From Asterochloris sp. CNOR1 (lineage: Eukaryota; Chlorophyta; Trebouxiophyceae; Trebouxiales; Trebouxiaceae), in NCBI GenBank assembly GCA_963969365.1, contig OZ017754.1, forward strand, positions 2,891,209-2,955,208: a stretch of 64,000 bases of DNA, written 5' to 3'. Every line of letters begins with the position of its first letter. Positions within the stretch are counted from its first letter, which is position 1. Under the pieces are notes generated by a model. The model made no database searches. It was not told the origin of the DNA and saw only the letters and a program-made list of their open reading frames with translations. This document shows, in pieces, positions 2,055-62,084 of the stretch. A program made the position numbers and the translations under genes.

Positions 2055-5000
2055 ATGGCCTGCAGGCGTGTCGAGGACTTTGAGCTGCACAAGCAGTTGT
2101 ACAAGGGCAAGGCCAGCCTGCTGTACAGCGCGACCTGCAAGCGCACCGGGATCCCAATTGCTCTCAAGCTCTACCGCAAGGGGCGCCTCTCTGAGCTGAA
2201 CTGGCACCAGGCAAGCCCAAACCAAGGATTCTGGCCTCTCTGCCTCTGACTGTCAGCGCACAATAGCCTGCACTGGTGATCTGTGAATGCAGGCGGTGGC
2301 TCTGCTGCACTGATCCTGATTTCTGAACATACAATGTAGGGCCAGGTCAGGCATGGGCTGCAGGGTGCCCGGAACTGACAGATGCCTGCCTTGGCAAGCT
2401 TCTCAGAGCCGATCTAGTGCAGTGCAACTGCATGAATGTGCGCTCACTGTCTTAGCTGCACAGGCGGCCTGTAAGGGGCAGGCCAGCCCTCCTGGATACC
2501 TCTTGAGGTATTGGCTCTGGGCAAAGCATGTGTGGTAGCTGCATAACGGCTGCACATCACAAGTCATGCATTGCCCACTTGCTGCTCCCATCTTGTTGCT
2601 GTTTGGCTGTGTTCAGCTGCAGGATGCTGTTGCCAGCTGCTGGAGTGTATGACTTGGCTGCACAGCCGCCTGCAGCCCATAGCTGAGCGGCAAGATTTGG
2701 CTTTTGCAGCACGACATCTTGGTGTCTGCAGCACAACATATTGTCCAGCAGGCCAAGTTGGTGCCAGCCTCTCCTGCTGGTCCGAGTTGTCTTGTTGGGC
2801 TCACCTGTGAGGTGCTGCTGACTGCAGGTTGAGCGTGAGATCCGGCTGCACAGCTGCCTGCAGCATGATAGCATCATCTCGCTGTACGCGGCCTTTGAGG
2901 ATGACCAGCACGTCTACCTGGCGCAGGAGTTTGCCTCAGGTGAGAACGCCTCACAGAGACTGGCGCTGAGCCTAGTAAAACCGGTAAGCTAGGCACATGA
3001 ATCGTCAGCTAGACACATCAAAGGTGAGCTAGACACGTGAAGTCCATCAGTTGGTGCTGTCAAGGAGGGGCTGGTGCAGGCGCTGGCTTCTGGTCAGGCT
3101 GTGATCCATGGAGGTGCTGCTGCTGGATGATGGCTTACTCTCAACCTGCAGCTGCTTTTGCTATGAGCAGCCCATACTGTACAGTCTGCAGTTCCAGGCA
3201 CCCCCTGGAGCACCTGTGCACACTCAGCTGCTCTTGCAGACTGGTGTGGTGTTCACACTTTGCTCATCAACAGGGGCACCCTTTACAATGAATCTAAGCG
3301 CAGCGTGATCTGTAATGCATGCCTGCTGCAGCTGCTCCCTGTTCTGTAACAGCCCAATGCCAATGCTGTGCTCTGCATGGGCACACCAGGACATGAGCCT
3401 ACAGCCAGCTGAGGTCCAGAACGCCTGTATGACATGGGAAGACCTGTACAAAGAGCATAAGCTCCATGCCCAGGGGCTGAGGCGCCCGCGTGCATGCAGC
3501 TTGTGTCATCCAGCCGACAAGCTGCTGCTGTGCCCTGCACGGGGTGATATGTTGCAATGTTGGCGCAGTCTCAGCACCTTACCCGCCCAATGGGTGCTGC
3601 AGCATGACAATCTGCATGTCTCCTGTGCTGCACAGGGGGCGACCTGTATGAGGAGCTCAAGCGCAGCGGGGGCCAGATGAAGGAGAAGCGCACCTCGAGG
3701 GACGTGCTGCAGCCATGCCTCTCTGCTCTGGCCTACCTGCACACCAAGGTGTGCCGTAGTTGCATGTGCTGACCTGGTGGGTGCAGCAAGTGACAGAATT
3801 TCCGCCTGTTCGGCCACTGGCCAATCTTTATACCAAGGCGTGCCATCACTGCTTGTGCTGGCTCAGCGGGCGCAGCAAGAGGGAAAGACAGACTGCCTGT
3901 CCGCCGTGTACCCAGCACATGCATGCGCTGACCTGGCGAGTGCTGCAAGATAGAGAGAGCGTCTGCCTGAGGGCGATGCAGGGCATCATTCACCGTGACA
4001 TCAAGCCGGAGAACATCCTGCTGACGGCAGACAAGGCTGTGAAGCTGGCAGACTTCGGGCTGTCCATCGATGCCAGTGAGGAGCGTCCAGTGACGCGTGC
4101 GGGCACGCTTGACTACATGGCCCCCGAGGTGGGGTCCAGGCAGGGTTCTGTGCTTCCAGGCCATGACCGTCATTGTGGTCGGCAGGCATGAGGGCATGCT
4201 GGGCTGCACGACACGCAAGGCACGTGAAGGCTGCGGTCGTCTGTACTCCCAGGCCATCGGCTTACGACAATGGGCAGGGCGCCACTCTCCTTTTGGGGCT
4301 CAAGGGGCGCCTGCCTTGGCCTGTGACGTGGGTACGCTAAAGTACAGTGGCGCCTGAGGTACCTCAAGGGCTGGGATCTGCCCTTGTTGCTCTCTTGGTC
4401 CACAAGCAGGCGGGGAGCTAGGGCGTAAGGGCGGGGTGAATGTGTACCCATACTTGCACGACTTTGAGTTTGAATGAGTGGGTCGAAATCTTCAGTCTTG
4501 AGCAAACAGCTTGTTGCCTGTGTTCTGTTGGTGGGCTGGCATGCTGGACCACATGGCGCAAAACGTGGGGGGCAGGCCACACATTGTGTCTGCATGTTGT
4601 TAGTGTCTGGCCATGCACCTGAGACACTGGGAGACAACATTGATGGTGAAACCCATGCAGGACCACTTCTGTGCAAACGGAAACAAGCCCCCTCTGCGGC
4701 TTAGCCAGATATGCCCACTCTCTTGCAGGTTGCGGTGTGCCTACATGGAATTCCACCTGTGTGCTCCACATCAGGCCTGCCTAGACTCATCTGCTCCCTC
4801 CTTGCTGGTGTGTCCAAGAACCACCACCCATGTGCTCTGCATCAGGTGTTCTAAATCCACTTTGGCCCCTCCCCTGCAGGTGCTGGTTTGCCCCGAGAAG
4901 AGCCATCCCCGGGAGAACAAGGACAAGGTCTTGCTGGGCTACACCAACATGGTGGATGCTTGGGCGATGGGCATCCTCGCCTTTGAGCTCATTGTTGGGC

Positions 5001-8000
5001 ATCCGCCCTTTGAGAAGGAAAGTCGGGCGGCCACCTACGAGCACATCATGTACCGCAAGCCCTCCTTTCCAGCCTGGATGACAGATGAGGCACGCGACTT
5101 CATCATGACAGCCCTCACCAAGGTAGGGCAGGGTGTTGCCCAAAGGGCAGGTGATGGCTGTGTTGCTGGGGGATGGAGAAGGCTGATTAAAGCTGGCCTT
5201 TGAGCTGTAATCAAGGTGAAGGAGACAGACATCTGACCACCTTACACAAAGCATGCTGACGCACAGAGGCAAGTGTGCTGCTTGTGTTTCTGCAATGGAC
5301 AATCTGCCTTGGACCCTTCAACAGCTGCACACCACTAGCACAGCAGTGGGAGAGCAGTGGGGGACCTGTTGGGCTCTTAATGTAAAATCTCTCAACCCCA
5401 TCTGCAAGCGGAGGACCTCACTTTCCCTGCAGGCTGCCCGGAAGCGGCCGGCAGTGGGAGACCTGTTGGGGCACCCCTGGATCGCGCTGCACCAGAAGCG
5501 GGCGGCACCCGTGGTGGACGTGGGACGGGGATCCTCGTGCGACATGGCCTCTCTGGGGAGTGTCGGGTCTGACATGTCCACTGGCACGGCGGCGCCCGCT
5601 GACGCCCTCAGGTGAGCTCTTCCTGCCTGGCCCTGGGGACACACTGGGGCCTCTGCTTCAAGCTGCCCTCTCTTGCTTTCACCCCTCAACCCTATCTTTT
5701 TGTGGGTGCTCTCCATGCCTGCCTGCCTGCAGTTAAGTCTGGGCGTTGCAAGGTGCTCACAGCTGCTGCCTCTGCACCGCAACTAGGTGTCACAACTGGT
5801 CGGCCACTCCAAGCAATCACACAGGCACTGGTCATGGCCCCACAAAGGCTTCTTTGCAGCACTGCTCATTCGCCGGTGGGAGGTATCATCAACAGCCCCG
5901 GAGGAGGCACCACAGAGCTGCCAGCCTCAAGCCACAGCAGCACTGGTCTCTAAGAAGGACAGTCAGTCTGACCCCACCCTCAATCCTCGGCATGCAGAGC
6001 AGCAGCCCTTCCAACAGGTGCTCCTCTTCCTGGGTGCAGGGTCAGTGCCGCCAGCAGCAGCCTGCAGGGAGAGGCGGCGCGCACGTCGGGGGCGAGCATG
6101 ACATCCACGCAGGCCGTGCCGGCGGCGGCTGGGAGCCCCTTCAGTGGGGCAGCCATGCGCCCCTCAGGGGCCAGCACCTCCATGAGGGGCAGCACTGTGT
6201 CCAGCATCGGGAGGAACAGCAGCGAGGCATCCAAGGTGAGCATGGCTTCCAGGCAAGTTGTGCCGGCGGCTGCCAGCCCCTTTCAGTAGCGGGGCAGCCA
6301 TGCGCCCCTTCAGGGGCCAGCACGTCCACGAGGGCCAGCACTGTGTCCCGCACTGGGATGAGATGAACAGCAGCGAGATGTGCAAGGTGGGTTTGACCTG
6401 CCAGGACTTTCCAGGGAAGCTCCTGACAAGATGTTACTCTGTGTATAGCAACGTCTACAGCATTAGAGGGAGGATCAGCAGGGGGGCGTCCAAAATGGCT
6501 CAGACCTGGCAGCTTTAGGGTTGGTCCTGGCAGGGGATCAGCATTTGATCCTGGCAGGGCTGTTTCATCACAGGTGGACAGCAGCAGGGCCGTATCAGGA
6601 CATGTTGACCAGACATGGCGCGCAGGATCTGCTGAGAGTGCCCTGATGCTGCACGTCAGGTGAGTGCCCTGCAAGCAGGCAACAATCTTGGCATAATGAA
6701 GGGCAGCCAATGGCGCCGATGCATGCCCCACATGCCACCTCAGCCCCGCAGGAGGACGGCAGCACTACAGGCAGCGAGGCAGCAGGTCGGGTGCAGGCCC
6801 GTACGCTTGGAGGCAGGCAGAAAGAAGGAAAACGGCAGCCTGCCCAGACACTGATGCATGTCTCATACCGCACCTGGGCGCCACAGGAGGACAGCGGCAA
6901 TGCAAGCAGTGCTGCAGCATGGCGGGTGCACAGCCTTCTGCACCAAGGGCAGGCAACTCCAAAACTGGACCACATGGGTGGCCTGCCCACACCTGGATGC
7001 ATGTCTCACACACACATGGGTCACACACCGCCCCTGACATCCGCAACCCGCGCCCTGTAGGAGGGCGGCAAGGGGGACAGCGAGGGCGGCCTGTCTACCA
7101 TGATGTCCTGGTCATCCAGCATTCGTAATGGCGTCATGAAACTGCTCAGCAGCAGTGGGTCCTCTAAAACCCTGGGCGCCTCGGCCGACCAAGCGATGGC
7201 AGCAGCCAATGAGGAGCAGCAGCGGGCGGGGGCAGGTGGGGCAACCTAGGTCAATCACTCCTCAGCAGCTGCTGAGGCAGGCAGTGTCAGCATGCTCCAG
7301 CAGCAGGGGAAGGCTGATGTTGTGTGACTGCCTAGCTTTGCAGCGCGGCATTTGTCTGGCCCCACGTCGCCAGCAGGGGCTGTTCGTGTGCCTGCTGACA
7401 CTGCCTGCTTGGGCTCCGCTGCAGGGGCCAGGCAGCTGGCCCATACTGGCAGCAGAGGGTTGTTTCTTCTGTCTACTGACTCTGGCAGCTTGGGCTCTGC
7501 TGCAGGGGACAGGCAGCTGGCCCACACCGGCAGCGTGCGTGTTGGCGGCCAGGACAGCGCCTCGTCCCTGCACAAGTGGCCGATCTCCCACGCCAGCAGC
7601 GCGGGGGCCGAGCAGCTGTCCGCAGCCAGCCGGGCGGCACGGCGGGAGCAGGCAGCCCTGGGGCAGAAGGCACGACGGGGGGCCCTGGACAACCCGCAGA
7701 GCATGGCGGCAGCGGCTGCAGCCAAGGCGGCGGCCCGCAACGCGGCAGCTCAGCTCGAGCGCTCAGCCATCTCCAGCTCGGCGAGCGCGGCCCACGGGGA
7801 GCCAGCCATGTCAGCCGGAGGCCAGGGCTTTGCAGCGGGTGCAGGCTCGCGTGTCAGCAGCGGCGGGCAAGGCGGCAGCGGACGAAGATCCCCGAGCGGT
7901 AGCGGAGCGCATCACAGCCCTGGGGGGCGCACCGCCAGCGACGCGCCCTCGCCTGTGGTCGAGAGCGGGCCCGGCAGCTTCTCGCGGCCAGGCATGGTGC

Positions 8001-11000
8001 CGCCCATGATCAACACAGCCAACCTGTCGCCCAGGTGAGCAACACAGAGCAACACAGGGCCATGCACACTGATGGCAACGATTCATGCGATTACCCATGG
8101 TGCCCCATGTCAGCTGAGTGCCCAGGTGAGGAAGGAGGACCAAGGCAGACGGATCCTGCGCTTCTTGCAGGCAGGCATGATGGTCCCAGTTACCACAGCT
8201 GGCCTGCTGCCCGGGTAAGGGAGGAGGGGCAATGCAGACTGATCCCCGCCCAATCAGCCAAGCTCACGGTGCTTCACTATGGCCAGCCTGCTGCCCGGCT
8301 GAGGGGCAATGCTTTGTGGCTCCTGGGGTTCTTACTCTGCAGGTGCAGCTCTTCCTCACCTGTGCTGTCAGGCTTGCACATCCAGCCGCTGTCAGCAGGA
8401 GCAGCAGAGAGCTCTACGGTTGCATCTGCAGGGTGTCCTCGGTTAGAGTCTGCTGCAGGAGCAGCCTGCAAACGCCCAACTCAGCAGCCATCCTGTCGCA
8501 TCTTCATCTCGGTGCCTTGCTGCTGTGTCAGTGGCTGTGAACTCCTCACAGTCTTGTGTGTCTCTCTGCATGCACTGACCCTGCCGCTGCCCAACTTTCT
8601 GCTCCCATGAAAGTGGGTCCCCCAGGCGCAATCTGGCTGCTGGCAGCCAGCAGCTGCAAGCCACTGTCTGCATTCACCCTTGCCCTGCTGCAGGGTTACG
8701 CGGACCACGGCCTCCCCGGAGAGCGCCTCCCCTGCGCGGTTGTCTGCCTCTGAGCAGGCGGCAGCAGCCGGGGTTCCCAGCGGCCTGGCGAGGCTGAATG
8801 TGCAGCCGTCAGCTGCTCCAGGCGGGGCGGAAAGGACCTCGCCTGGGTCGCCAGACTCTGTGTCCAGCCTGCCAAGCCCCTTCGCCAATGTGTCGCCACG
8901 TGCGGGCCGCATGGCTCAGCCCCTGTCACGGCGGCGGGCCATGCAGGGCACAGGTGGGCTGCCGCAATGACACAATGATGGCTGGCGTGATTCTCATGGG
9001 GCATCCCTTCCCCGTGGAGTGCATCTGCAGGAGGAACCCCCAAGGCCTTCTCATACTGCAGCATATGCTCTTGCTGTGCCATTTCAAAGCTGTGCCCAGC
9101 TGTCCAGCTCATGGCTGCGTCTGGAGGCTTGCAGTCAACAACCAAGGCCAAGCACCTGTAGCTGCGGTCATTGCAGTTTCTCAGCCTCCTGCACTGTGCT
9201 GCCTGCAGGTCAGGCCAGCAGCAGCAACCTGGGGGACACTGCCGTCATCTCCACCGCTGGCAGCTACAGCCCCTCCACCTCCCGGCTGAATCTTGTGTCG
9301 GGGCAGCACAGCACCACCTCTGCCCTGGGCTGCGCAGGGCGCCGCAATTCTGTGCAGGTGGGCTGCACTTCCTGTTGTCATCAGCAGGTGGCACGTCTGC
9401 CCCCTGTTGACTCAGCCGGATTGTCCCCTTGCCATGCACGGCTGGCTTGGCGTCGCAACTCTGTAAAGGTAGGCCACCCTCTCTGTTCAGAGCTCGCCTG
9501 GCTGTCTGGTTGTTGAGCACGGCTGGCGCCGCAACTCTGTGCAGCTCGATCACCCATTCTCTATCTAGCCAGCTGGGCTGTCCACATGCCAAGCACTGCT
9601 GGCTGATTGCAACTCTGTGAAGGTGGATCATTCCCTCTCTGTTGACCAAGCTGAGCCGTCCACCTCTCAAACACTGCTAGAGGGGCGGAGCACCTCTGTG
9701 CAGGGTTGTCATTCGCTCTCTGTTGAGCCAGCCATGCTGCATGCTTAAGCACTGCTGGCTGGCGTTGTGAGTCTGCCTTCAGCCAGGCCACTTTCCCCTT
9801 TTGAGCCTGTTGGACTGCCTGATTGCGTACGCATCCCTTGGCCCAAGGGTGATTGCTTTTGGCTCACAGCCCTCGCAGCTCACCGTGTGCGCCTGTGCCT
9901 GTGCAGATGCCTGATCATGCCCTGGAGGAGTTGTCGGGGTCGGTGGCCCCTCTGGGGATTGAAGCCACCCGGAGCAAGAGCGTGGTGCTCCCCAGCAGCA
10001 TCGCAGATGCGGGGGTCAGGGCTGTGCATGGTGAGCAGCACCGACAATCGCCAGCAATCGGCTGACACCAAGGTCATCAATCTTAGCGGACCCTCTGCGG
10101 ATGATGCTGCAGCTCTGCATCGTTCACGTCTGTACCGTCCCCTCTGTTTGTGAGCGCCCTCTCTCAGCTGGCTCTCAATGATTGCTTGGCTGGCAGAGCA
10201 CCATCTCAGCATCTCGATCAGGCCATCTGAATGGTGCACGACTACACTTATCGCCGCCATCACGCAGTCAGCCAAGAGCACACCCTCGCCCGACCCACAA
10301 CTCCAGAGGTGGTGCTGCACGCAGCCCAGTGCATGCGCCAGGGGTATTGAGCAACAGCCATGGAATGTTTGATGTACCCAGTGTCTACAAGACAGCTGCA
10401 GGCGCCGTCAGCAATGCAGTTGTTGGGGACAGCTGTCTGCCTCATGTGGTGCTGTCTGCTGCACCAGCTCGTTCCTCAGCCCTGACAGCACGCCAGACAG
10501 GCTGGTGTGCACGACCTCGCCCACCCCTGCAATGGCTCAGGCCGATGTTGATGGGGCCTTAGGGGCAGACAAAGATCGATTTGGAATGCTCGGGGTCATG
10601 GTCAGTGGTGATGCACATGCATCACAGGTGCACTGCCATTCACTGTGGAGCTGCACCCATTTCAGATGGCTGAAAGCTTACAGCCACCATGGTGCCTGTG
10701 GGCATGGCGGTGCAGTTCAGGTACGCCTGGTGTGCTGCTGCTGCAGGGGCCCCTGGGGGGAGCGGGAAAGCGCTGAAGCCCAGCAGGATGTCATCCCAGG
10801 GCCTGTTTGCCATGGGTGTCATGCAGGTGAGGGCCCGTTTGCCATGGATGCAATGCAGCTGATATGACTTTTGTTGCAGGAGGAGGAGTCCCGTGTCTGA
10901 GACAGTGGCAAGTTCATCTCTCTTTGGTGTTGCCATATGTTGTTCTGCAGGGATTGATGGGTTGCTGGTAGGCCAGATCACATGTTGCTTTTCTAGCAGG

Positions 11001-11374
11001 AGATATTCCCAAAACATCCTGCCACTATCTGGTTGAGTAGGGGGGCAAATAACATCTGCCCGCATGCTGAGAGCTGCTTGTCAGACTCCCTGGTTCATGC
11101 TGCCCTGACACCTGCTGTCCACTGTTGCATATCAGGTACATCAGCCTTTGACCAGCTGTCATTGCTGCATTGAGCCCTGCTCCCCCTACAGCTCTGAGCT
11201 GCCTGTGTGGTGCCTGTGCAGGGCGGGCAACACCCTGCTCAGCTGCTCAGCCCAGGAGAGGGGCCTGAGGCCACCTCAGGTCAGGACAGGATGTATGCCG
11301 CGCCAGGAAGCACCCCCTCCCCCCTCAGCAGTGCCTCTGACAACCTCATACGAGCCCATGTGCCACGCACATGA
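2055..11374 (+). CDS. Aurora-like Ser/Thr protein kinase, CALK type (multi-exon)
   Basis: Exons read with consistent phases: 2055-2210, 2828-2939, 3636-3748, 3982-4128, 4880-5122, 5433-5611, 6040-6235, 7061-7235, 7506-8034, 8694-8953, 9209-9357 and 9907-10030. Less certain pieces lie near 10267-10600 and 10747-10826, with a last exon at 11222-11374 ending in TGA. The first six exons give a full kinase domain: ALK (ATP lysine), VERE (helix C Glu), HRDIKPEN catalytic loop, [14 protein letters not shown], and [12 protein letters not shown] in lobe C. The glycine loop is poor ([11 protein letters not shown]). The long Ser/Ala/Gly-rich tail has no recognised domain. Layout and motifs match the Chlamydomonas CALK family of Aurora-like kinases, known there for roles in flagellar shedding and length. 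The start ATG at 2055 is the nearest in-frame one; because a possible acceptor (CTGCAG) follows it at once, the true N-terminus may lie upstream. The first intron appears to use a GC donor. An alternative short end (stop at 10900) is less likely because the 11222 exon is strongly coding-like. Confidence 0.8.
2975..3045 (+). repeat. short tandem repeat at a donor, kinase intron 2
   Basis: About three copies of a 24-26 base unit (GGTAAGCTAGGCACATGAA, then variants with CAGCTAGACACATCAA and GTGAGCTAGACACGTGAA) follow about 40 bases after the donor at 2940. Each copy again carries a donor-like GGTAAGC or GGTGAGC. Confidence 0.7.
3740..3985 (+). repeat. echo repeat of exon end plus donor (kinase intron 3)
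   Basis: The exon end and donor ACCAAGGTGTGCC at 3742, followed by TGTGCTGACCTGG and GCAGCAAG, is echoed at 3831 (TACCAAGGCGTGCC, then TGTGCTGGCTC and GCAGCAAG) and again at about 3908 (ATGCGCTGACCTGG, GCTGCAAG). The period is about 78-89 bases. The copies fill the whole 233-base intron. Confidence 0.8.
4721..4895 (+). repeat. echo repeat of acceptor plus exon start (kinase intron 4)
   Basis: The real acceptor and exon start at 4873-4895 (CTGCAGGTGCTGGTTTGCC) is preceded by two decayed copies, at about 4799 (TTGCTGGTGTGTCC) and 4723 (TTGCAGGTTGCGGTGTGCC). The period is about 75 bases. The middle copy even keeps the LLVCP reading of the true exon. Confidence 0.75.
5338..5475 (+). repeat. echo of exon core GGGAGACCTGTTGGG (kinase intron 5)
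   Basis: GCAGTGGGAGAGCAGTGGGG, then GACCTGTTGGGCTC at about 5343-5378 echoes exon bases GCAGTGGGAGACCTGTTGGG at about 5451-5470, which encode AVGDLLG. It lies wholly inside the intron upstream of the real exon. Confidence 0.7.
6115..6400 (+). repeat. echo of a 3' exon half plus donor (kinase)
   Basis: The exon segment at about 6116-6240 (GTGCCGGCGGCGGC ... AACAGCAGCGAGGCATCCAAG|GTGAGC) is repeated at about 6260-6392 (GTGCCGGCGGCTGCC ... AACAGCAGCGAGATGTGCAAG|GTGGGT). The second copy has small indels that break the frame, so it is an intronic echo or a very recent failed exon. Confidence 0.85.
6725..7080 (+). repeat. echo of acceptor plus exon start, three copies (kinase)
   Basis: CGCAGGAGGACGGCAGCAC (about 6746), CACAGGAGGACAGCGGCAA (about 6882) and the true boundary TGTAGGAGGGCGGCAAGGG (about 7057) line up. 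Each is preceded by a CATGTCTCAYACCGC- or CACATGCC-type stretch. The period is about 135-175 bases. Confidence 0.75.
7415..7535 (+). repeat. echo of acceptor plus exon start (kinase)
   Basis: CTGCAGGGGCCAGGCAGCTG, then GCCCATACTGGCAGC at about 7420-7455 duplicates the true acceptor and exon start CTGCAGGGGACAGGCAGCTG, then GCCCACACCGGCAGC at about 7500-7535. The spacing is about 80 bases and identity is about 90%. Confidence 0.9.
8000..8310 (+). repeat. echo of exon end plus donor, three copies (kinase)
   Basis: The exon end at about 7990-8040 (GGCATGGTGCCGCCC ... CTGTCGCCCAG|GTGAGC) is echoed at about 8173-8225 (GGCATGATGGTCCC ... CTGCTGCCCGG|GTAAGG) and about 8268-8305 (ACGGTGCTTCAC ... 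CTGCTGCCCGGCTGAGG). Both echoes keep a donor-like end. Confidence 0.75.
9330..9760 (+). repeat. tandem echo of exon end plus donor, five copies (kinase)
   Basis: The true exon end GCCGCAATTCTGTGCAG|GTGGG (about 9341-9362) is followed by copies near 9451 (GTCGCAACTCTGTAAAGGTAGG), 9531 (GCCGCAACTCTGTGCAGCTCG), 9608 (TTGCAACTCTGTGAAGGTGG) and about 9690 (CACCTCTGTGCAGGGTTGTC). Copies are separated by YATTCYCTCTCTGTTGA- and CACTGCTGGCTGG-type spacers. The period is about 80 bases. Each copy contains, or once contained, a usable donor. Confidence 0.9.
10795..10865 (+). repeat. direct tandem duplication across an exon/intron border (kinase)
   Basis: GGGCCTGTTTGCCATGGGTG, then TCATGCAGGTGA (about 10799-10830), is followed directly by GGGCCCGTTTGCCATGGATG, then CAATGCAGCTGA (about 10832-10863). 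This is a head-to-tail duplication of about 33 bases spanning the last exon codons and the donor. It is the shortest and least decayed example in the window. Confidence 0.85.
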
Positions 11375-22100: not shown

Positions 22101-23206
22101 GTGCTTAGACAGGCACACGCATCTGATAAGCAACATCTGATGCATCTTACCGTCAAGGCAATGCTTGCTGCCGCCATCTGTTCCACATTGAGACGGGATG
22201 TGATGCCCAGTGCCCCTTCAGCCAACATAATCTGCATGGCAAATGCTGCCGCCTGCAGTCAAGCAGCTCCGTCAGAAAGACTGCCTGGTTACGCTGCAGA
22301 GCAATTTGGTCATGATAGTTTTGCAGCAGGGGCAGCGTGTCTCACCTGCCATCCTTGTGCTAAGAGGTCGGCCTCAACCTCAGCATTGTAAACCGCAAAA
22401 GCGCTGCCCAAGGTAGGCCAGATAGCTTTACTGGTGAGTGCTACCATTGTAAAGAACACATCGACGCTATCCTCTCCCTGCCCATTGACTGGCCCAAGGA
22501 CTGCTGGGGCAGGTGCCACAGCCTGCTGCAGGCGCCTCCCCAGCCGTCGGCCTACAAGCAACACAGCTGCAGCATATGAGTGCTCACAGCACAAGTATAG
22601 TGCGGAGCATAGAGCTTCACAGGGCACTGCATGCTGTTGGAAGGGGTTTGTTTGACTGGCAGACCTGGACGAGGATGCTGCGTCTGAGGGGCTGACGTGC
22701 TTGGGGTGAAGGAAAAGTTTGTGACGTTGAGGCTTACAACTGCATGAAGTCTTGTGAGCGCAGCCACGACTGATTCTGTGAAATTATCTGTGAGCGGCAG
22801 TAGCTCAGGGCCAACAAGCCTGCACACATATCAATTGTGGCTGCCAGCCTCACCACAGCAATTCAGGATCTGCACGCACCTGATCAAAGAATTCCCCACC
22901 ACCAGTGGGAAGTGGTCTGATGGTGTGGCCTGCACATAGGAACACAAGAGTGAAGTGCAAGTTGCACAGCTATCGAGACATCGAATTCAAGTGCTTGAAC
23001 ACGCCTCAAAGATTGATAGAGAGGTGCATGAACACCATTCAGTCAAGCACCGGAGGCAATCTGGCCCTCACCACGGAACTGTATCTTAAAACATTGTTGA
23101 AGGTGATGTTGGGGCTATTGTTTGCGTCTGCGTAGACTCTCCTTTGAAGGCATACGCAGCACAGCGCATTGAACAACCAGATCGTCCTGCACCTCCAGAT
23201 CATCAT
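19179..23206 (-). CDS. receptor-like protein kinase RLK-A
   Basis: A single-pass membrane receptor kinase on the minus strand. Exons: 23206-23072, 22929-22880, 22819-22665, 22551-22346, 22252-22151, 22081-21755, 21651-21514, an uncertain one near 21490-21400, the membrane exon near 21285-21190, the juxtamembrane exon near 21045-20760, then kinase exons down to 19179. It begins MMIWRCRTIW with a hydrophobic leader. The ectodomain (about 350 aa) carries several N-glycosylation sites (NIT, NFT, NVT, NFS, NGT). The helix AGVAGIAIAAACALAIALL is followed by LLLTRRK, a stop-transfer signal. The kinase has GQGGFGKV, AVKVV (ATP lysine), LQEIAML (helix C Glu), HGDIKSSNVLL, ADCGLAR, AYAAPE, SYGVLLWEI and QHRPTIR. 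HRD is HGD and DFG is DCG. The ectodomain family is not recognised. One stretch near 21.4-21.5 kb does not splice cleanly. It differs from RLK-B at a few residues, e.g. SEERGSEMLWHQ versus SEERRSEMLWPQ. Confidence 0.8.
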
Positions 23207-23396
23207 AAGATCCCGGATGAGGCAATGAGCTCCTCCTCTTGTTTCTTGCCTTGTAAAACACGTCCTTCCCCTTTGACTCGAGGACCTGTCATGTGACCTA
23301 TTCAGGGTTGTGGTGCAAATTTTCGTCGTTATGATATAGTTGAGAATGACATGACTGATCTGTCCCAGTGATGCTGGTAATTAGCCAGCCTGCAGC
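23207..23396. promoter_or_regulatory. duplicated divergent intergenic region, unit 1
   Basis: 190 bases between the RLK-A start (minus) and the ATG of the broken THO2 5' copy (plus, 23397). It corresponds to 37080-37283 upstream of intact THO2. Shared blocks include CAGGGTTGTG and GATCCCGGATGAGGCA. It presumably still drives RLK-A; whether it fires toward the THO2 fragment is unknown. Confidence 0.55.
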
Positions 23397-24612: not shown

Positions 24613-24627
24613 GTGGCACAAACCGCC

Positions 24628-52200: not shown

Positions 52201-55200
52201 GCCTGACAGACCTCAGAAATTACATAGAGCACAGTATCCGCCTGAAGGTCACAAGCTTCGGCCATGGCAGGGCTGTACCACATTCACTCTTTGCCAATAT
52301 ACCGTGGCACTGGACCAAGTCCAGTCCTGCCACAAGTTGCAGGCCACCTGAGGGCGGGGCGAGACCTAGTAAGATCTGTGAGGAGGAGGCCTGCAGCCCT
52401 GCACGCAGGCAGCTCACCCACTGCTATGAGCAGGTGGCTGGGCACAGCTGCTGCTTTGCAGCTTGGCTGTCTCAATCCTGTCGCTGCTGCTTCTGCAGAA
52501 AGTCGGGGGTCACTTGAACACGGAGCGGGACAAGCACCGCCAGACCTGTGAGGAGGTGGCCCGCAGCCTGCAGGCCTGGCGCGACTCCTGGCTGGCCGAG
52601 GTGTTCCCCAGCGACAATGGGCGCATGGACACCACTGATACCCTGCTCCTGCACCTGGTGCTGCCCCGCGCTAAGATCAGCGAGGAGGATGCGCTGTTCT
52701 GTGCGGAGTTTGTCAAGGCCATGGTGCTGGCTGGGACAGACTACCTGGGGCTGCTGCCCCTCATGAACCGGGTGAGTGGGGGTGCAAGGCAAGGTCTTGA
52801 CATGTCCCTGGGGTGAGCTCGGCGGTGCTGGGCTGCTGCTGCTCATGGTTAGGGCAAGTCATGGTGACAGCGCTGGTATGGGCGGGCTGGACCACACAGG
52901 ACTGCCCTCACGTCTAGTGCAAGCAGCGCTGAAGGTTGCTCGGCAGATTGTGCTGCTCTCGGCAGTGGTGCAGGCTGAAATGGACCTGTCGAGGCTGCGA
53001 TCACTGATGAAGGGGGCGGGAGGAAGAGCTGGGCCACTGCCTTTTGATACAAACATGAGCACCTGACATGGCAGTGGTGGGCGCTATGTCACAGACTGCC
53101 CTGGGTTTTGCTGAAACAGCCACCTGCCTCTCGTCCTGTCACCTTCGACGAAGATGGGCACTGAACCAATGCAAGGGCCAGCACAGACTCCTTCACACAT
53201 AAAAACTCTGTTTGTTCAACGGGTGAGTTGCTGGTGTCCCGGACGGCAGTGCAGCATGCACCCTGCAGTATGAGGAGCTGCCGCTCCTGCAAGGGCATAT
53301 GTTGTTCAGAAGCAGTGGAGGGATGTGCAGGAATAGCGGTGGCACCATGGAAGAGTTTTTGTTCTACTGCCTCTTGCGCAATTGCTGGCCCCCTCAACTG
53401 CAAGGCTGTGCCGCAGCCAGTCATGGTGCAGTATACTGCAGAGTTGTTTGGCCGCATGGTACGTATTCACTGCCTGTTCCTGCATACTGACCTCCAACTT
53501 GTGCTGTCCATGTGCAGATGTTCATGCTGCTTCACACGCTGCCAGCATTGACCAACCAGGAGGCAAAATGCGTTGGCATCTTCTTCTCGGAGTTTGTCAA
53601 ATTCGTTGAACTCTACAGGGTAAGTCTGCTGGCAGCTGTGGCTTGAATACTGCAAGTTAAAGATTGCAAGCAGGACTGAATTGTTGCATTATCTGAAACA
53701 GGACTGACTGTGCTGGAGCCAAATTACATTGGCTGATGTGCCATGCTGGTCGCTGGGGCCACCCAACCCTGGTGCACATTCATATCATGTGCCTGCTAAG
53801 GTACTGCATTGTTGGATCCCATGAGTTCTGCAAGGCAGAGTGCAAGCTCGAGCTTGCCTGAAGCGGGGGCTGTGAGCTGGCAGCACCTTCAGAATGCTGC
53901 ATGGCTTGCAGGCTGCCAGCTGCTGGTAACATCTGTGCATTGTGGCCGGCCATATGCAAACCCTGTGGATGCAGCCTGAGCTGTTGTGATCGGTGGGTAC
54001 TGGTAACTTGGCTCGGCTTAGTGCCTACAGCCTGGTCAGAAGCGGCTAGTAAGCCGACTTCTTAGTCCCTGCTGACCTATCTGAGGCAGTGACTGGGGAC
54101 TGCCAGGCAAGCTGCCCATCCGGAAACAGTCTGACCTATGTCTCTGTGTCTGCTGTCGGACCTAAAGACAGACTTTTCAAAGCAGGCAGAGCACGCCATT
54201 GGGAGCTGCTGACCTAGTTACTCTGTGCCTGCATGTCAATGTGCGGCAATGCTGGGCCACAGGCCGCCCGGCTGCTGCTTGGAAACCTGTGTGAGTTCAA
54301 TCCTTTGTTCCTGCAGGGTGGCGTGAGCTGGTGATTGTTGCAGGCAAACATGTCGCCCCATGAGAGCGTGCTTTGCTCATTCACAGGCAACCCATGTCTC
54401 TGTGCCTGCAGGCTGACCTGAAGCGGTATGAGCACGAGCTGGCCCCCCTGCGGCCTTTGTGCTCCTCCAGCACACTGTGGAAGGCGGGCGCTGAGCCCTT
54501 CAGCCGTGTGAAGTGGCTGCAAGGCTGTGTGAAACTGCAGTCCTTCCCCTGCACCCACATTGTCAGCGTGCTGAAGAGAAGCAGAGACCGGACATCTTTG
54601 GAGGACAAGAACATCTTCACCTTCTTGCAGCAAATCCTTCAGGTGCGGCAACATGTCTCTACAAGCTTGCCTGCTGTCTCAGCAAGCCTGATATCTGTCT
54701 GTGCACACCTCTTGGCTGACTTCTTACCCGACTGTACAGGCAGAAGCTTCGCTTGTTTGAAATGACGGTAGTGAACAACAACAGCTGGATGACAACATGT
54801 GCCATACCTGCAGGTCTGCCCTGCTGTCAGGCCCTTTGCCACCGTTCTGCTGCAACACATCAACCCCTTTCAGAAAGAACTGAGCAAGCAGGATGGGCCT
54901 AGGGCGCACGGCGTCACACAGAGGCTGACTGCCATGGTGCCCATCACTGGCTATCTGCATAAGGTGCTGGCTGAAAACAGGTGGGCCTTGCACCTCTTGG
55001 CATCATCAAGCATGGTGTCAGATCTTTGAGGCTTGACTGTGCTCAACAGCTATGCGTCAATGATCACATGCCCTGCTGTGCTGCTGAGGCGCATGAGGCC
55101 AATTTGAAAGCCCCGGCAAGACTTGTTCAGAAAGGCCTCTGCTTCTGGAACAGTATTCACTGCTGGGAATTTAGACGCTAACCCACAAGAAACAGGCGCC

Positions 55201-58200
55201 ACAAGGCTAGTCTTACTAAGAGGGACTGCTTAGAGGCCTCATGGATGAGGGGCTCTATTTCGTTGATGACAACCTGCTAGGTTACATCAGCTGCTGTGCC
55301 CAGCTCCCGGCTCCCACAATGCTGCTCACGTGCAGGTTGCCGGAGAAGCTGGACTATGTACACAGGATTTTAGAGGCTTTGCCGCTGAAGGAACGTGAGA
55401 AGCAGCTGCCTGCTGCCACAGCAGCAGCCACACCTGCAACACCTGAGGCAGCTGTTGAGGCAGCAGGCGGGGACGGTGGCCCTGCACAGACCAACAATGC
55501 TGCTGCCAAACACTCTGCTGGAGCTGCCACAGGAGCGCGGCCAGCTGAGGTGCGCGGCGCAGACCGCAGGGTGGAAGAGGCAGCCGTGGCTGAGGCCCCT
55601 GCTGGCCCAATACCTGCACGCGTGAAGGCTGAGCAGCTGCCAGTGGCCAGCAGCAATCAGGAGGCAGCTGGGGCCACAGCTGAGCGGCCACCAGGTACCA
55701 GGCCGGCAGCAGCAGCAGTCACCTCACAGCCTGCCAGCACTGCACAGCTGTCTGGCAAGCGCAAGTCCAGGTGAGGCATCTCTGGATTGACTTCGAATGT
55801 CAGCAGGTTTCGCGCCTACACTACCTGCCCTGGTTATGTCTGCACTCTTCAGCAGAGATGCGCTGCACTCTGCCAGTCAATTGGACCAGTGCAGCATTGC
55901 GTGGAGCTGCTTTTTTCCTGAGTGGTGCCCCTGCCCATGGGTGGTGTCAGTATGCTGTGGGCGACATGCCAAACCAACAGGTGCGCTCCACCTGCAGGGA
56001 CGGGGACAAGCATGGCGAGGCTGGCCCCAGCAAGCGCCCAAGCCTGGGGGATGTGCCTGCCAGGGCTGCTGCCCCCGAGCACAGGGTGAAGCCAGAGGAG
56101 GCACATGCAGGCAACAGGAATGGCCGAGCTGAGGCAGGCCCATCGCGGCTGGGGAACGAGCGGCGGGCTGCGGGGGAGGAGTCCAGGTCCCGCCAGAGGG
56201 CAGACAGAGGCGGAGATGTGGCACAAGGCCACAGCGCTTCCCGCCGGGACTCAGGTGTGCTGCTCCCTGTCTCTGGTCCTTCTGTCCAGTATCCTGGCAG
56301 CTATGGCACCAGTCTCCACAGGCTCTGCTGATGAGTCTGCTGTCTTCAGCCTTGGAGCTAGCTACAGACCTGGTGTTGCGGAAAGCAGGAGAGATGGCGT
56401 GTCAGCAGTCTAGACTGTCCTGCATCAGGTCAACACAAACCTGCTGACTCATCTGCTGAGTACCAGCATGAGGACTGGGGAACGACTGTGCATCTACAGC
56501 AGGGCTGACATATCCTGCATCTCTTGGTGACCCAACAGAGCTGGCCTTTCCTGTGCGGCTTGCTGTCTTGGATTGCAAAGCTGCTCACTGCCGACATCTG
56601 GCAGGTCAAAGTCAAGCCTGGACTCAGTATAACGGCCTGTCATCTCTGTCTGTTCAGTCTGCTCTGAAGACATGCTGCAGGTGCCTCCCTACTGCAACTA
56701 TGTAGGTGCTGACAGGTAAGGCCACTCAGTGCAGCCTCATCAACATGCTGCAGATGGCCGCCAATCTGGAGCAGATGCTGATGTGGTCAAGCTGCCAGCT
56801 GCTGCAGGCAGCTGGATATCTGGTTGTGCCGATGCAGCCGGGCAGTCTGAGTGTGAGCATATGTGCACTGCAGGTCACTTGACAGCAGCTGTGGATACTC
56901 TCCTGGGGGCCGAGGACAGGCGCAAGGCTCGACATGAGCGCTTCAAGCAGGCAGACGAGGCGCCTCAGCCAGCCAGGAAGCCCAGCATTGACTCGCGAGC
57001 AACCCAAAGGTAGTCAGGAGATCTTCCTGTATGGCCATGCACCAGCAGAGTCAGGCACCATGCCTGTGCTCTCCTGACCCAAGGGTGGGGCCCACAGATG
57101 AGCAGGAGCTCTTCCTGCGCAGCCAAGGAGCAGTATTGTGGGCAAGATGCCAGTGGACGGGCAGCCTGACCTTGCATCCTTCAGTTGCTGTCTGCCTAGA
57201 ATGCTGTGGTGGTCACCAATGATGGCACTGTCTTCATGTACTGAGGGGCTGCTACTGTGTGGCGCATGCTATGTATACTCAACCTTTGAATTCATGAGCA
57301 GCACATAGGTTGCTTTGCGCTGCGTGCCCCAGCTGTGTGCAGCGGCACTGCATGCGGGCAACCTGGCTGCAGCCCTCTGGCAAACATGCTTGGGTGCTCT
57401 TCACATGTTCTCATCACTTCTGTGCATAATGTGCAACCAGCCTTTTGCTGCCAGCAAGGATGGCACAGTGCTGGGTACTCACTGCAGCCCTATGCGTGCA
57501 GTGCTGTGGATTCTCGGCAGCAAGGGGAGGCGTCCAGGCATGAGAAGCAGAGGGTGGAGCCTGCGGCAGGCAACAGGATTGTGTCAGGTGGGCTATGTTG
57601 CTGTTGCCAGCCAAGTCACAAGCAAAGGATGTTCAACAGTCCTATATTGCTCAGCTTCCCGCACTCAAGCTTCTCAGCATGCACATGACATGTTTGGAGA
57701 TAAATCCACATGCCTTCTGTTCCCACAGGCTACCTGTCTCATGCTGCTGCTGCTGCTTACAGGCAGCAAATTGCGGTCTGATGCACCAGAGTTCCGGCCC
57801 ACAGAGATCCCCAGGGCTGCTGCAAGAACTGAGCCATCTCACCGGGGCGGTGATACGCCTAGGGAGGGCGCTGCCTCTGAGGATGCTTCCAGGCGAACGG
57901 TGCAGCAGTCTTCTGCTGCCAGGACCCCAAATGGCAGTGACAAGGAGGCACAGGATGCAGATGCCACCCCAAGGTGAGCTTGCAGAGGGTTCTTGCATAA
58001 GCTTGGGGACGCCAGATGCTGCCTGCAGAGGTGGTACTCAGCTGGGCCACTTCTCCTCACTGTGACTGGACCAGTCTGCCATGTATGCTCAACCTTGCCA
58101 CACAGGCAGGCATATCATTCAGGTCTTGAATGCGGTTTGCTGTGACAGCTCTCCAGCGGTACCGCAGTGCTGGCTGCAACACTTGGCAGCACATGCTCAC

Positions 58201-61200
58201 ACAATCAAGAGTTGACTGGCTGCAGGTCAAGCAAGGCAGCGGTTGCTGAACGCAATGAGCGCCCCAGGGATGGTAGCGGTCAACATGCCCGAGAGGCTCA
58301 GCCTGACAGGCAGCAATCTCGAGAGGCCCAGCCGGATCAGGAGCGCACTCATGAGGGCTCACCTGCCAGGGAGCGCGCTGCAGACAGGGCTGTCAAGAGG
58401 GAGTTGACCACCATGACTGAGGCAACTCACCCGGCTGTGGGCGAGAAACGCCAGGTGGGGCGTGGTGCTCTAGCTTGGACTGCTCCAGCTCCAGCTGCTT
58501 GTGAGATTATCAGCTGTTGGGCGCTTGTGGTTGCTTTTGGGCAACAATCGAAGCTCTTCACGGCAGTCTATCTGCTGCATCCATGCTGGAAGCCTGGCAT
58601 GAAGTCTTCCAGCATATTAGGTGCCAAGCGTCTGCTTGCAAGCTAGGTCTTATAAAGATTCCTGACATTCTCAGGACCCCTTTGTGAGACTGTCATATGC
58701 TGTTTGTGGTGGTGTTGTGCATATGCTGCCAGCAAATGTGGCTGCTTGGACATGATCCCTTGGCAAGTCATGCAGTCTGCCCCTCCACCCAACTGACAGC
58801 CTCTCACTGCTGGCTGCAGCGGCAGCCCATCACCTTTCAGAAAACAACAGTGGCAACTGCAAATAATCGGCTGCGCATTCAGAGTGAGGCTCGCACCGCA
58901 CGGTTTGGGGAGCCCTCTGCTGAGGATGCTGCTAATGCCAGGTGAGATGCTTGCAGTTCCTGGATGCTCCAGTGTGTCAGCCATCAGCTGGCCTTCTGAC
59001 ACGCAGACATCTTCTGTGAGTTTGCTTGTGTCAGCCCCGCTTTGGATGTTGGCTTCCATTGCAGGTCTGCAGTGTTGCATGCAGCTGAGTTTAGCACTAC
59101 TAGCCAATGTTCTGGGCTTACACTGATGCGCAAGGCCCAAGCAACATGCAGGTCCACAACTGGGTTCAACAACTCTTGAAAATTGCTTGTGAGGGGGCAC
59201 AATCCCGAATGCTTTGCTGACTTTGGCAGAGCATTGCAAATGCAAGCATTGCTGCCAAATCCGCAACGCCGACAATGGAGGGCCTGTCCACTGCAGAACT
59301 GCTGCAGAGGTGGCAACGCACCAGCGTGCCCCAGAGCCACCACGCCTTGTTCTTGAAAGGTATGCAGCATGCCAGAGATGCAAGGGGTGACATGTAGCAG
59401 CTGGCTGTCAAAAGGGGCTGTAACGTCTCCTCTGCTTGACCAGCTGCTTGACAGCTTGATGGAAAGATGACTGTGTGCCCAGCTTTCAAAATGGACACAA
59501 GCTGTGTCATTGCAGGCCTGCTGCCGAGGAGGCAGTGCACCACCGTGCTCGCTCGCGCAGCAATGACCGGTCTAGGGTGGACACTGCCCGGCGCCGGGAC
59601 TCTCCTGGGCGTGACCGGGGTGCCGACCGTCGCCACCGCTCTGGGCGTCAGGAGTCCCAGCGTTCCCGCAGTGACGAAGGCGCACGACATGACAGGCCTA
59701 CTGACCGCCCTCCTCCTGGTAATCCGCGGCTTTGTGTTTCCAAGTTTGCGCGATGGTGGTGTTTGAGGCCTATGTGAAAGAGCAGCGTGCACAAGGCCGT
59801 CACTGTAGATGCCACGGCAGGTCATTTTGCAAGTTTCCACCCTGAAACATTCAAGCGCACAGCTTACAGACATGCTGATCATGATGCTGATGCACCAGGT
59901 TTGTTTGCAAAGTCCCTGTCCAACACCTGTTGCACCTCTGCTTGCAGGGCTGAGGGATGAACCTGAGGATGTGCGTGTTGGCAGGGACAGGCGGCACCGC
60001 AACCTGCGCCAAGACTTGCCTGAGGAGGGGGAGCTCAAGCGCGTGGAGGCCGGGCATGCAGGCGGCAAGCGGGGACATGACCATGATGCAGGTGAGCTCT
60101 CCCTGTGTTTAGTGGTGCTTAATGCATGGGGTTCGACAGTGATGACCCAGCAATGGTGCTTGCTCTCCTGCTCTACACTGCACCATGTAGAGCAGTTGAG
60201 GAAACATGTCACACAGCATCATAACGTCAATTGCATAGTTGTAGTTTGTCTTTGACATGGCTTTGTCTGCTGGTTCAGGTGATGCTCTCCCGCCCATGGC
60301 TATGGACGTCCCCAATGGTGCTGATCAGGTCAGCTTCAGGCCTGCTTCTTTCAGGCAGCATGGTACGTTATGAGCTGCTGGGGTTGCATGCCGTCAACAT
60401 GTCAGCGCTGGCCCCTCCTATACTGAGACATTCCCTGCGGGTGGCTTGTTGCCTAGATGTGCTTTGCTCTCCAGGTGATATCCTTGCGCATCCCAGACGA
60501 CAGCGCTGTGGCAGAGGCCGACCTACCTCCGCCACCAGCATCTGGGCGTGAGGCAGGCAAGGCCTCCAAGAAGCGCAAGAAGGAGCACAAGGTAACACCT
60601 GACGATGTTTGTGCAGGTGACGAGGCTATCTGTTGCCTTTCAGATATGTTGAGCATAGCATGCACTTTGCCGCAGCTCTGCTTTCTACACCACCAGGGGC
60701 ATCAGGCTGCCCTTTGACATTTCAGCAAAGCGTAACGTCATGATATTTTTGTCAAGCAGGAGGAGAAGAAGGAGAAGAAGGAGCGTCGCGAGAAGCGTCG
60801 TAGGGACAAGGTGCGCTAGAGCATGACTGGAGGGTAGGGGTGCACTGTGCAGCGCCTGAGAGGGTTGACTGTGATGCAAGTGGCCCTCAAATTGCCATCT
60901 CAGATTAGTTGTTGCAAGCTCATCTGTGAACTGGGCGTGCATTTATTTAATGAGCTGGTGCTTGCTGCAGGATGATGCTCCTGAAGGTGGCGGTGACTCC
61001 ACTCTTGGCAGGCATGGCGCTAGCCTTGGCAATGGATCTGTTGCTGCGGTTCAGTCAGAAGGTGTGATGTCAACATGGAAATGGCTTTGCACGTTTGTAG
61101 ATGCCTGTGCCATAGCTGTTTCCGCTCTAGCATCAATTGCTGAGCTACCAAAGGAGAAGTCACAATGCCAGGTTGCGAGTACTTGTGATTTCCTGGTGCA

Positions 61201-61336
61201 GATGCACGCCTTCCTCTTCATGCCCCCTCAGGACCCGCAGAAGAGAAGGTGGGGAGTGCTTGTTGTGTTGTCTCGTGCAGCCGCTGACTGCATCACAGCA
61301 ATTGGAACTGACCCTGTGCCATTTTGTAGGATCTAA
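37284..61336 (+). CDS. THO2: THO complex subunit 2 (THO2/THOC2)
   Basis: The large scaffold of the nuclear THO/TREX complex, which couples transcription to mRNA packaging and export. Confident exons include 37284-37340, 37550-37645, 39164-39258, 39990-40101, 40661-40806, 41455-41560, 41961-42146, 42570-42629, 42903-43103, 43716-43874, 44431-44610, 45195-45407, 46276-46440, 46914-47117, 47739-~47986, 48527-48631, 48906-49070, 49676-49858, 50377-50659, ~51451-51598, ~51956-52030, 52499-52771, 53518-53619, ~54412-54641, ~54814-54981 and ~55336-55770. Tail exons run from about 56000 to 61336. Hallmarks in the family's order: KYNLFREASEGWAK, IKQLFGCFSLDPNK, IGEWGMAKQLM, LLTKMACTNPF, TQWLQSM, GLMAGGFYLKF, ISEDFYLWFWSLSYGHLH and LVLPRAKISEEDALFCAEF. 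The tail is highly charged (RDRGADRRHRSGR, KKEKKERREKRRRDK), as in animal and plant THOC2. Joins between 37650 and 39160, and near 47.99-48.52 and 50.66-51.45 kb, are unresolved. The stop is TAA at 61334-61336, reached by splicing |GATCTAA. Introns are packed with echo repeats. Confidence 0.9.
38275..39175 (+). repeat. ladder of acceptor plus exon-start echoes (THO2)
   Basis: The real boundary CTGCAGGGTCGCCTGGGGGC, then AGAGAAGGTCCCTGTGG (about 39159-39195) is preceded by decayed relatives. They lie at about 38898 (TGCAGGGCTGCCTGTGGTCC, then GAGAAGGTCCCCATGG), 38816 (TGCAGGGTTGCCCAGCGGCA, then GAGCAGG), 38993 (TGCAGGGTCACGTAG), 38363 (TGCAGGGGCGCACAGCAG) and 38281 (TGCAGGGACCTCTGG). The copy at 38898 is the clearest. 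The others are weaker. Confidence 0.65.
39236..39700 (+). repeat. echo of exon end plus donor (THO2)
   Basis: The exon end GAGATGGCTGAGGCGATCTG|GTGAGC (about 39239-39264) recurs inside the intron at about 39658-39684 as GAGGTGACTGAGGCACTCTG|GTGAGC, with an intact donor. Confidence 0.8.
42805..42950 (+). repeat. echo of acceptor plus exon start (THO2)
   Basis: TATAGGTCAAGCCCAGGCTG, then GGCATTGTGGAGCAGATCACC (about 42807-42850) mirrors exon bases TCCAGGCCGGGCGTCCTG, then GAGCAGATCGTGCCC (about 42909-42943), about 90-100 bases upstream of them. Confidence 0.7.
44278..44480 (+). repeat. echo of exon start (THO2)
   Basis: GTCGGCGGGTGGGTAAGGTC, then AAGCAGCTCATCAACTGGCT (about 44282-44325) mirrors GATTGGCGAGTGGGGAATGG, then CCAAGCAGCTCATGAACTGG (about 44430-44472). 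A peptide-level echo (KQLINWL versus KQLMNWL) is kept. Confidence 0.8.
44950..45230 (+). repeat. four-step ladder of acceptor echoes (THO2)
   Basis: CCCCTGCAGGTGGCAGACC occurs at about 44956, CCCCTGCAGACGTCGCATC at 45036, CCCCTGCAATGCCAGAAT at 45126, and the true CCCCCGCAGGTGGCAGACC at 45186. Each is followed by a GTGGCAGTSCC- or CCAACAACAGTGCC-type continuation. Spacings are about 80, 90 and 60 bases. The first copy also keeps the VADLPT reading of the real exon (VADPPV). Confidence 0.85.
47900..48125 (+). repeat. echo of exon 3' part (THO2)
   Basis: GCAGTCGATGCCCAAATGGG, then CAGCACAGATGCTGCTGCTGC (about 47906-47946) is repeated as GCAGTTGATGCCCAAGTGGG, then CAGCTGAGATGCTGCTGCTGC (about 48069-48110). 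The copy leads to AGGTTCAAG|GTGGCT, which could be used as an alternative 3' exon with donor. Confidence 0.85.
49370..49740 (+). repeat. echo ladder of acceptor plus exon start (THO2)
   Basis: The real exon opens CTGCAGATGCCTGATGGGCA, then GCCAGTGGCCATCAAGCTG and ATCAGGGCA (49670-49731). A long echo lies at about 49454-49515: CTGCAGATGCCTGAGTTGCA, then TCAGCTGGTCCATGTGTAGCTG and GTCAGGGCA. Shorter ones start at about 49376 (ATGCAGGTGCCTGC) and 49595 (AAGGTGCCTGCTGGGCAGCG). Confidence 0.85.
51868..51985 (+). repeat. echo of acceptor plus exon start (THO2)
   Basis: TTGTAGGAATGAGGAGGCCAGC (about 51874) precedes the real TTGCAGGTATGAGGAGGCCATC (about 51949) by 75 bases. The echo keeps an AG acceptor and seven codons of similarity, so a longer alternative exon could be chosen. 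Confidence 0.9.
52335..52600 (+). repeat. decayed pseudo-exon echo (THO2)
   Basis: TTGCAGGCCACCTGAGGGCG, then GGGCGAGACC...ATCTGTGAGGAGGAGGCC and TGCAGCCCTGCACG (about 52336-52410) mirrors the true exon CTGCAGAAAGTCGGGGG...GAGCGGGACAAG...ACCTGTGAGGAGGTGGCC, CGCAGCCTGCAGG (about 52493-52580). The offset is about 157 bases and identity is moderate. Confidence 0.7.
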
Positions 61337-62004: not shown

Positions 62005-62084
62005 GCGGGGCTTGTCAGACTGCGAACATTCCTGCAATCCCTGCAATCGAACCATCCCACTGCACCTCAAAGCATATTGCAATC

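Follow-up and report, generated by a model that had tools for sequence, protein, structure and literature searches.

Local tandem duplication of an exon segment containing AGGT reportedly creates introns, as in the Rogers/Hellsten et al. 2011 model. The closest described systems, as far as the accessible parts of the papers go, are a tandem duplication across an intron-exon boundary in the RdRp gene of potato (Ma et al. 2016, PMC4974935), direct repeats of 4-30 bp (mean 11.4) that link the 5' to the 3' intron border and were interpreted as traces of insertion (Rogers and Bendich 2025, PMC11782384), and stwintronisation in Lipomyces, where a donor duplication of 4-7 nucleotides (nt) was ascribed to staggered-break repair and nested splicing was shown by RNA (PMC7138796). 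In cell culture, fill-in by CST/polymerase alpha-primase gives small tandem duplications at double-strand breaks (PMC8355091). In the literature accessible to us, transposon-free intron lengthening is poorly documented, and there are few cases in which introns are described as gained or enlarged through tandem duplication. Here we analyse a 64,000-nt stretch of the genome of the green alga Asterochloris sp. CNOR1 (contig OZ017754.1, positions 2,891,209 to 2,955,208; the window from here on), in which a preliminary description had noticed introns holding imperfect copies of their adjoining exon edges, here called echoes. The phenomenon is real in all five regions that we sampled, and between about a quarter and a third of the introns in the sample contain an old and degraded copy of the exon edge next to them.

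Exon-edge echoes in the sampled regions

The genome comprises 56.4 Mb in 21 contigs. The window forms the terminal part of contig 9 and was analysed together with four 50-kb stretches from contigs 1-4 (GC content ~58% in these four), giving 263 kb in total or about half a percent of the genome. Genes were modelled with a purpose-written, self-trained two-strand gene finder whose minimum intron was set to 45 nt; 423 introns were predicted, with a 5th percentile of length of 74 nt. The trained consensus was CAG/GTGAG for donors and CTGCAG/G for acceptors (the slash marks the junction). In these models the acceptor consensus TGCAG/G is very strong, and GC donors account for 24 of 421 (~6%). Homology supports ten echo introns. 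Six of them, out of 21 introns, are in a contig 3 gene in which the MCM5 alignment covers most of the gene length; judged by eye on the printed alignment, five fall where the surrounding alignment has no gaps and the sixth is next to a gap of one residue. The other four, two within a Pkinase match and two within a Tho2 match, were placed from the match ends alone and not from a residue alignment. All models beyond these homology-checked parts are ab initio.

Echoes at the donor or acceptor edge reached p<=0.01 in 112 of 338 usable introns (23/59, 13/64, 21/81, 30/61, and 25/73 by region), although about 4% would be expected by chance, as each of the two edges was compared with 100 random introns of other genes. 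Without the minus-strand genes of the window the count is 110/331. At a score of at least 30, echoes were found in 81 of 331 real introns and in 1 of 1,655 dinucleotide-shuffled ones, so the two controls that the preliminary description had called for, shuffled introns and random pairings, both bear it out. Furthermore, there were 145 repeat pairs with a score of at least 36 in four bands covering lags (the distance from reference to copy) of 20-423, against 8 in six bands of equal width at lags of 500-5100, and this local excess is present in each of the five regions. Chance or composition as the cause was ruled out by the random-intron pairing, the dinucleotide shuffles, and the lag controls. 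At least eighteen echo introns had been claimed for two unrelated genes, and we count 21 at p<=0.01 in the two plus-strand genes of the window.

The tandem gene units of the window (see below) were partly or wholly excluded from the p<=0.01 counts, the edge and interior rates, the orientation, geometry, and homology-profile analyses, and the splice-site retention. The minus-strand genes of the window were excluded from the real sets used for flank homology and simulation, the intron-family search, copy counts and identities, the shuffle test, length comparisons and classes, the AG/GT edge tests, and part of the spliced-copy test.

At a score of at least 28, 43 of 259 donor edges had a copy within the first 200 nt of the intron that they border, and 37 of 261 acceptor edges had one within the last 200 nt of theirs. 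Only 1/223 donor edges recurred in the preceding intron and 0/246 in the next, and of the acceptor edges 0/225 recurred in the following intron and 2/250 in the one before. No edge copy lay at the far end of its own intron (0/90 donor and 0/87 acceptor edges, introns of at least 500 nt, same score). The bodies of intron starts and intron ends repeat in 6/211 and 4/211 cases, and in a separate count the rates were 42/245 for donor edges, 37/245 for acceptor edges, 37/832 for intron interiors, and 8/316 for intergenic DNA, which puts the echo rate of exon edges at 3-7 times that of intron interiors. Alignments at a score of at least 28 were direct in 118 cases and inverted in 6, and 53 of the 118 direct ones cover the junction by at least 8 nt on both sides. 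Templated insertion of the polymerase-theta type produces copies in both orientations and on either side of the template; it was rejected because inverted echoes are so few and copies across the exon nearly absent.

The set of 150 local repeat pairs with a score of at least 34 includes none from the second and third units of the tandem gene array, and 116 of its pairs reach an exon edge. Only 2 of these 116 have a lag below 70 nt, against 16 of the 34 other pairs (p=2e-10), suggesting that selection tolerates copies only if their distance from the true junction is no less than about 70 nt, the length of a minimal intron. Periods of 33-265 had been proposed, and most of the shorter ones are therefore not edge echoes. 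One to five copies per intron had been described, but an echoing edge usually has one: with 700 edges at a score of at least 28, a single copy was found at 83 echoing edges and two or more at 22. Both donor and acceptor echoes occur, often with their splice sites as had been noticed, and both sides echo in only 5 of 82 echo introns. A 1158-nt intron of the MCM5 gene (L012:3804-4961; C3:1003804-1004961, minus strand) combines a donor echo at lag 152 with an acceptor echo at lag 461.

The copies extend from the exon into the intron beside the junction and are thus copies of unspliced DNA. Donor-side homology is confined to about -75 (exon) to +28 (intron), and acceptor-side homology to about -65 (intron, where it is weak) to +55 (exon). 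Identity by codon position was.855/.843/.81 on the donor and.836/.837/.79 on the acceptor side, a slight excess of third-position mismatches, and shows no peak at the junction within the exon part. Lags showed no preference for multiples of three (remainders 0/1/2: 13/8/22 donor, 14/14/16 acceptor). Copied donors keep GT in 17 of 40 cases, some of these alignments ending short of the junction, whereas copied acceptors keep AG in 29 of 39, and 25 of the 39 do not fall below the 5th percentile of true sites; of the 29 copies extending as far as the junction, 11 have AGGT within 6 nt. Mismatches at all codon positions, lags without frame, and partly lost splice sites together make the copies look like decaying non-coding DNA. 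Copies of reverse-transcribed spliced RNA were rejected, as only 2 of 34 matches to spliced junctions span the junction and the copies are on average similar to the intron rather than to the other exon, a few individual ones excepted. A dispersed element was rejected as well, in keeping with the preliminary description: no spacer-spacer match and two marginal matches were found among 390 sampled introns, and the segment 7300-7700 of the window was single copy in a genome search.

Origin of the copies

The explanation that we favour, and consider rather likely, is that introns have been lengthened by old, direct tandem-type duplications straddling exon-intron junctions, followed by decay and turnover. 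A local duplication would copy a segment spanning the junction, and we infer such a tandem origin for each copy; the outermost donor or acceptor would stay in use, presumably also beyond the homology-checked introns, leaving mRNA and protein unchanged. The duplicated edge of the exon, in many cases together with the splice site, would thereby turn into intron sequence and decay in a roughly neutral way, most of the events being old. The prevalence in the sample, the orientation, the side, the distance floor, the decay, and the link to intron length are direct observations.

At a score of at least 34, introns with an echo have a median length of 528 nt (n=82) and those without one of 266 nt (n=314, p=2e-18), and the difference holds among introns of at least 300 nt (549 versus 432, p=9e-4). 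By length, echoes were present in 59/138 introns of at least 400 nt, 17/71 of 300-399 nt, 4/90 of 200-299 nt, and 2/97 below 200 nt. Identities of edge copies range from <70% to >95%, so the graded ages that had been reported are there; values of 1.0 obtained for two overlapping arrays are an alignment artefact and were ignored. However, no copy reaches 95% identity among the 65 that align over 30 nt or more, and 8 of these lie at 90-95%, where steady neutral birth would place 20-25% of copies at or above 95% (probability of zero 8e-9 to 4e-7). As near-identical long copies are missing, the wave of duplication seems old, and the age profile points to a past episode in a process that appears much reduced or stopped now.

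Several results weigh against this explanation. Among introns of at least 400 nt the medians (614 with an echo, 559 without) do not differ significantly (p=0.12), and longer introns offer more room for a match. Uniform neutral tandem duplication with substitutions and small indels gave a simulated donor-edge/intron-start ratio of 1.2-1.4, whereas the observed one is 5.9-6.7 at a score of at least 28 and 3.5-4.0 at 36 or more. With ages from near zero, homologous DNA between the copies was present in 0.67-0.81 of the simulated echoes but in 0.18-0.28 of the real ones (a span that reflects differing intron sets, query lengths, and random controls); homology over the whole repeat period is nearly complete in some cases (6091-6389 and 7383-7534 in the window) and absent for most echoes. 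When all ages were old, the simulated ratio of 4.2-9.5 brackets the observed one and inter-copy homology was 0.28-0.48, but the copies became too long and too diverged (median 66-78 nt at 0.79 identity, against 41 nt at 0.85). Steady neutral tandem duplication with small indels is therefore ruled out by simulation, and as the plain neutral model fails, the data call for extensive turnover of introns, for short duplications separated by spacers, or for the retention of copies. With some ten large indels added to each intron, most simulated values came close to the observed ones (ratio of 3.0-3.8, flank homology of 0.31-0.39, median copy length of 53-54 nt where the real one is 41 nt), but turnover on that scale was not seen in the single paralogue pair available, which is a weak test.

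The main rival, which seems to us possible but clearly less probable, is short duplication targeted to the junction, in which staggered-end fill-in and captured filler at breaks near junctions would leave a direct repeat of 20-90 nt flanking unrelated DNA. Experiments have shown small tandem duplications to arise at breaks that carry 3' overhangs, as far as the accessible part of that work goes (PMC8355091), and the tight confinement of homology around the donor and acceptor junctions is what such a process would produce, as is the 3-7 fold excess of edges over intron interior. A simulation of short copies with spacers also came nearest in copy length and flanks (10-90% range of length 26-54 to 28-73 and flank homology 0.10-0.27, against 23-68 and 0.18 in the real set). 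But its copies were too identical (0.46-0.61 at or above 88% identity, real 0.31) and its edge ratio too low (2.7-4.2, real 6.7), the spacers have no identifiable source among the sampled introns, long young events that would expose breakpoints are absent, and nothing in the data points to breaks at junctions. The choice between old boundary-straddling duplications and this rival is not firm. Functional retention, with duplications arising everywhere and selection keeping intronic copies of the edge and splice site as decoy or alternative sites, would account for both the edge enrichment and the decayed flanks, and a simulation of constrained copies at old ages approaches some statistics (ratio 9.6-19, flank homology 0.38-0.48). 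Copied acceptors are indeed often intact, but the retention of GT in only 17 of 40 copied donors and the lack of a junction peak in identity within the exon part make this explanation unlikely.

Birth of the intron itself by tandem duplication of an AGGT-containing exon segment, of which the echo would be the mark, belongs to the same class of events, and the 70-nt floor is close to the low end of predicted intron lengths. However, such a birth should leave copies at opposite ends, of which there are none in introns of at least 500 nt, and in introns of at least 250 nt AG exon ends were not enriched at echo donors (25/41, against 147/210 at the others) nor GT exon starts significantly at echo acceptors (13/43 against 45/208, p=0.24); with no enrichment found, a requirement for AGGT or recursive splicing was rejected, and we regard this model, mentioned in the preliminary description, as highly unlikely here. 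Still less is to be expected of the idea, also raised there, that introns keep growing by border duplication. The wide span of identities, the several copies at 22 of 105 echoing edges, and the 95% identity reached by 8 of 22 copies shorter than 30 nt would suit it, but the absence of near-identical longer copies does not, nor does a paralogue pair, 83% identical over 3.8 kb, in which we found no insertion of 20 nt or more (a weak test, as the gene has mostly very short introns). Finally, most gene models are ab initio and the splice motifs are strong, so that mis-predicted exons, chance similarity of splice motifs, or a dispersed introner or transposon could in principle imitate echoes; given the random-pair and shuffle controls, the lack of matches between introns, and the ten homology-supported cases in MCM5, the kinase, and THO2, we take the likelihood of such an artefact to be next to negligible for most of the cases.

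With more reserve, we suggest that junctions may be preferred sites of local duplication: copying coupled to transcription, splicing, or repair might have repeatedly inserted stretches of 20-110 nt that include a splice site into the neighbouring intron, no closer than a minimal intron length, and a sizeable part of the long introns in this lineage might go back to a wave of this kind, now faded. If datable copies of their own exon edges are present in at least a quarter of the introns of one small genome, intron lengthening could be studied event by event, and the 70-nt floor, the side rule, and the edge excess are sharp quantities for any mechanism to explain.

Echo introns and other features of the window

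The first of the two plus-strand genes is a protein-kinase gene model (2066..11374; Pkinase 5.9e-56) in which the exons after the kinase domain are predictions and to which the gene finder adds a putative 5' exon at 1048-1166. Counting this exon, 10 of 15 usable introns echo at p<=0.01 and 7 of 15 at a score of at least 34. The predicted first intron (1167..2065), the most repetitive case, contains a decayed array with a period of ~64 and seven donor-edge copies at a score of at least 28, but its status as an intron hangs on the putative exon, and it may be an ordinary upstream array. Decayed arrays with periods of ~64 and ~69 lie at 1357-1829, either immediately before the kinase gene or within its intron 1, and their unit includes GCAGCGGGAGGGGCTCTGG.

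Two introns inside the Pkinase match have echoes on the acceptor side: 2211..2827 (reference 2813-2864, copy 2625-2676, lag 188) and, with the reference within the exon, 5123..5432 (5451-5470, copied at 5354-5373, lag 97). The donor echo of 6236..6751 is a nearly pure tandem duplication, with 6091-6238 repeated as 6235-6389 and a third copy near 6470-6497. In 6902..7060 the donor-side reference 6838-6878 recurs at 6981-7020 (lag 143), although several acceptor-like copies make this model uncertain. The acceptor echo of 7236..7505 (reference 7482-7534, copy 7401-7453, lag 81) is another nearly pure tandem duplication, spanning 7383-7534; it had been described as ~90% identical copies at 7420 and 7500, and the duplication is real (7383-7453 versus 7464-7534), but its identity is 85% over 71 nt. 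Intron 9358..9906 has donor echoes (9338-9357, copied at 9525-9544), with additional, decayed copies at a spacing of 76-81. Another kinase intron segment, 5616-5853, has its only other match, an 86% copy of ~237 bp, at C2:2806802-2807037, an interchromosomal copy of intron DNA.

The second gene is a THO2/THOC2-like model (37299..62842; Tho2 1.5e-21, THOC2_N 1.4e-20) with 42 predicted exons and uncertain ends, in which 11 of 37 usable introns echo at p<=0.01 and 10 of 41 at a score of at least 34. Inside the Tho2 domain match, 51597..51954 has an acceptor echo (reference 51947-51968, copy 51872-51893, lag 75) and 52031..52498 an acceptor-side echo (52542-52575, copied at 52372-52406, lag 170); at the end of the match, 52772..54411 has an acceptor echo (54390-54423, copied at 54134-54167, lag 256). 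Acceptor echoes are also found in 38550..39163 (39154-39187 to 38810-38843, lag 344), 43875..44430 (44414-44471 to 44265-44321, lag 149), 44611..45194 (45185-45208 to 44955-44978, lag 230), and 58942..59515 (59508-59548 to 59289-59329, lag 219). A donor echo occurs in 39259..39989 (39236-39264 to 39655-39683, lag 419), and donor-side echoes in 47118..47738 (47049-47101 to 47238-47290, lag 189) and 50660..51439 (50606-50628 to 51088-51110, lag 482).

A tandem gene unit of 6.87 kb occupies 17755-37989. Over 9.3 kb the first two copies share 99.5% identity; copy 3 is 98% identical up to ~33950 and only ~81-83% beyond, as would be seen if a recent duplication had run into an older copy that had already diverged. 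The introns of the minus-strand predicted gene of these units (19382-34528) are mostly 67-86 nt and hence too short for the echo test, while the medians of its neighbours are several hundred nt; its six longer introns (165-377 nt in the three units) score at most 24 and none reaches 34, although for one of these, 19653-20029, such a score gave p=0.00 in the random-intron test. Two predicted introns of 4,977 nt between the units are artefacts of the models, and one of them was counted as an echo in the p<=0.01 test. The window ends in a TTTAGGG telomere array, preceded by several hundred bases of degenerate TTCGGGG/TTCAGGG repeats (63260-64000 together).

Comparison with described duplications

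We found no account of genome-wide exon-edge echoes in introns in the open-access literature, as judged by titles and the openings of abstracts. As far as their accessible parts describe them, the known systems share single features with the echoes. The direct repeats at or near exon-intron borders are common to our data and those of Rogers and Bendich (PMC11782384), but here copies of ~20-110 nt of one border lie inside its own intron. The donor is duplicated in Lipomyces too (PMC7138796), but the copies here are far larger and known from DNA alone. The fill-in synthesis at double-strand breaks (PMC8355091) offers a repair route to small direct tandem duplications, yet the portion of that work available makes no tie to splice junctions. 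With the gain of introns described by Hellsten and others, again from partial accounts, the echoes have in common that a local tandem duplication supplies splice sites and intron sequence while the protein stays unchanged; they differ in that the copies stay near the edge copied, AGGT is not enriched, and the introns were apparently lengthened and not born. The potato RdRp duplication (PMC4974935), as the accessible text presents it, is one recent event that created a new intron, whereas in this alga the copies affect about one in three or four introns of the sample, on both sides, and are old and mostly within existing introns.

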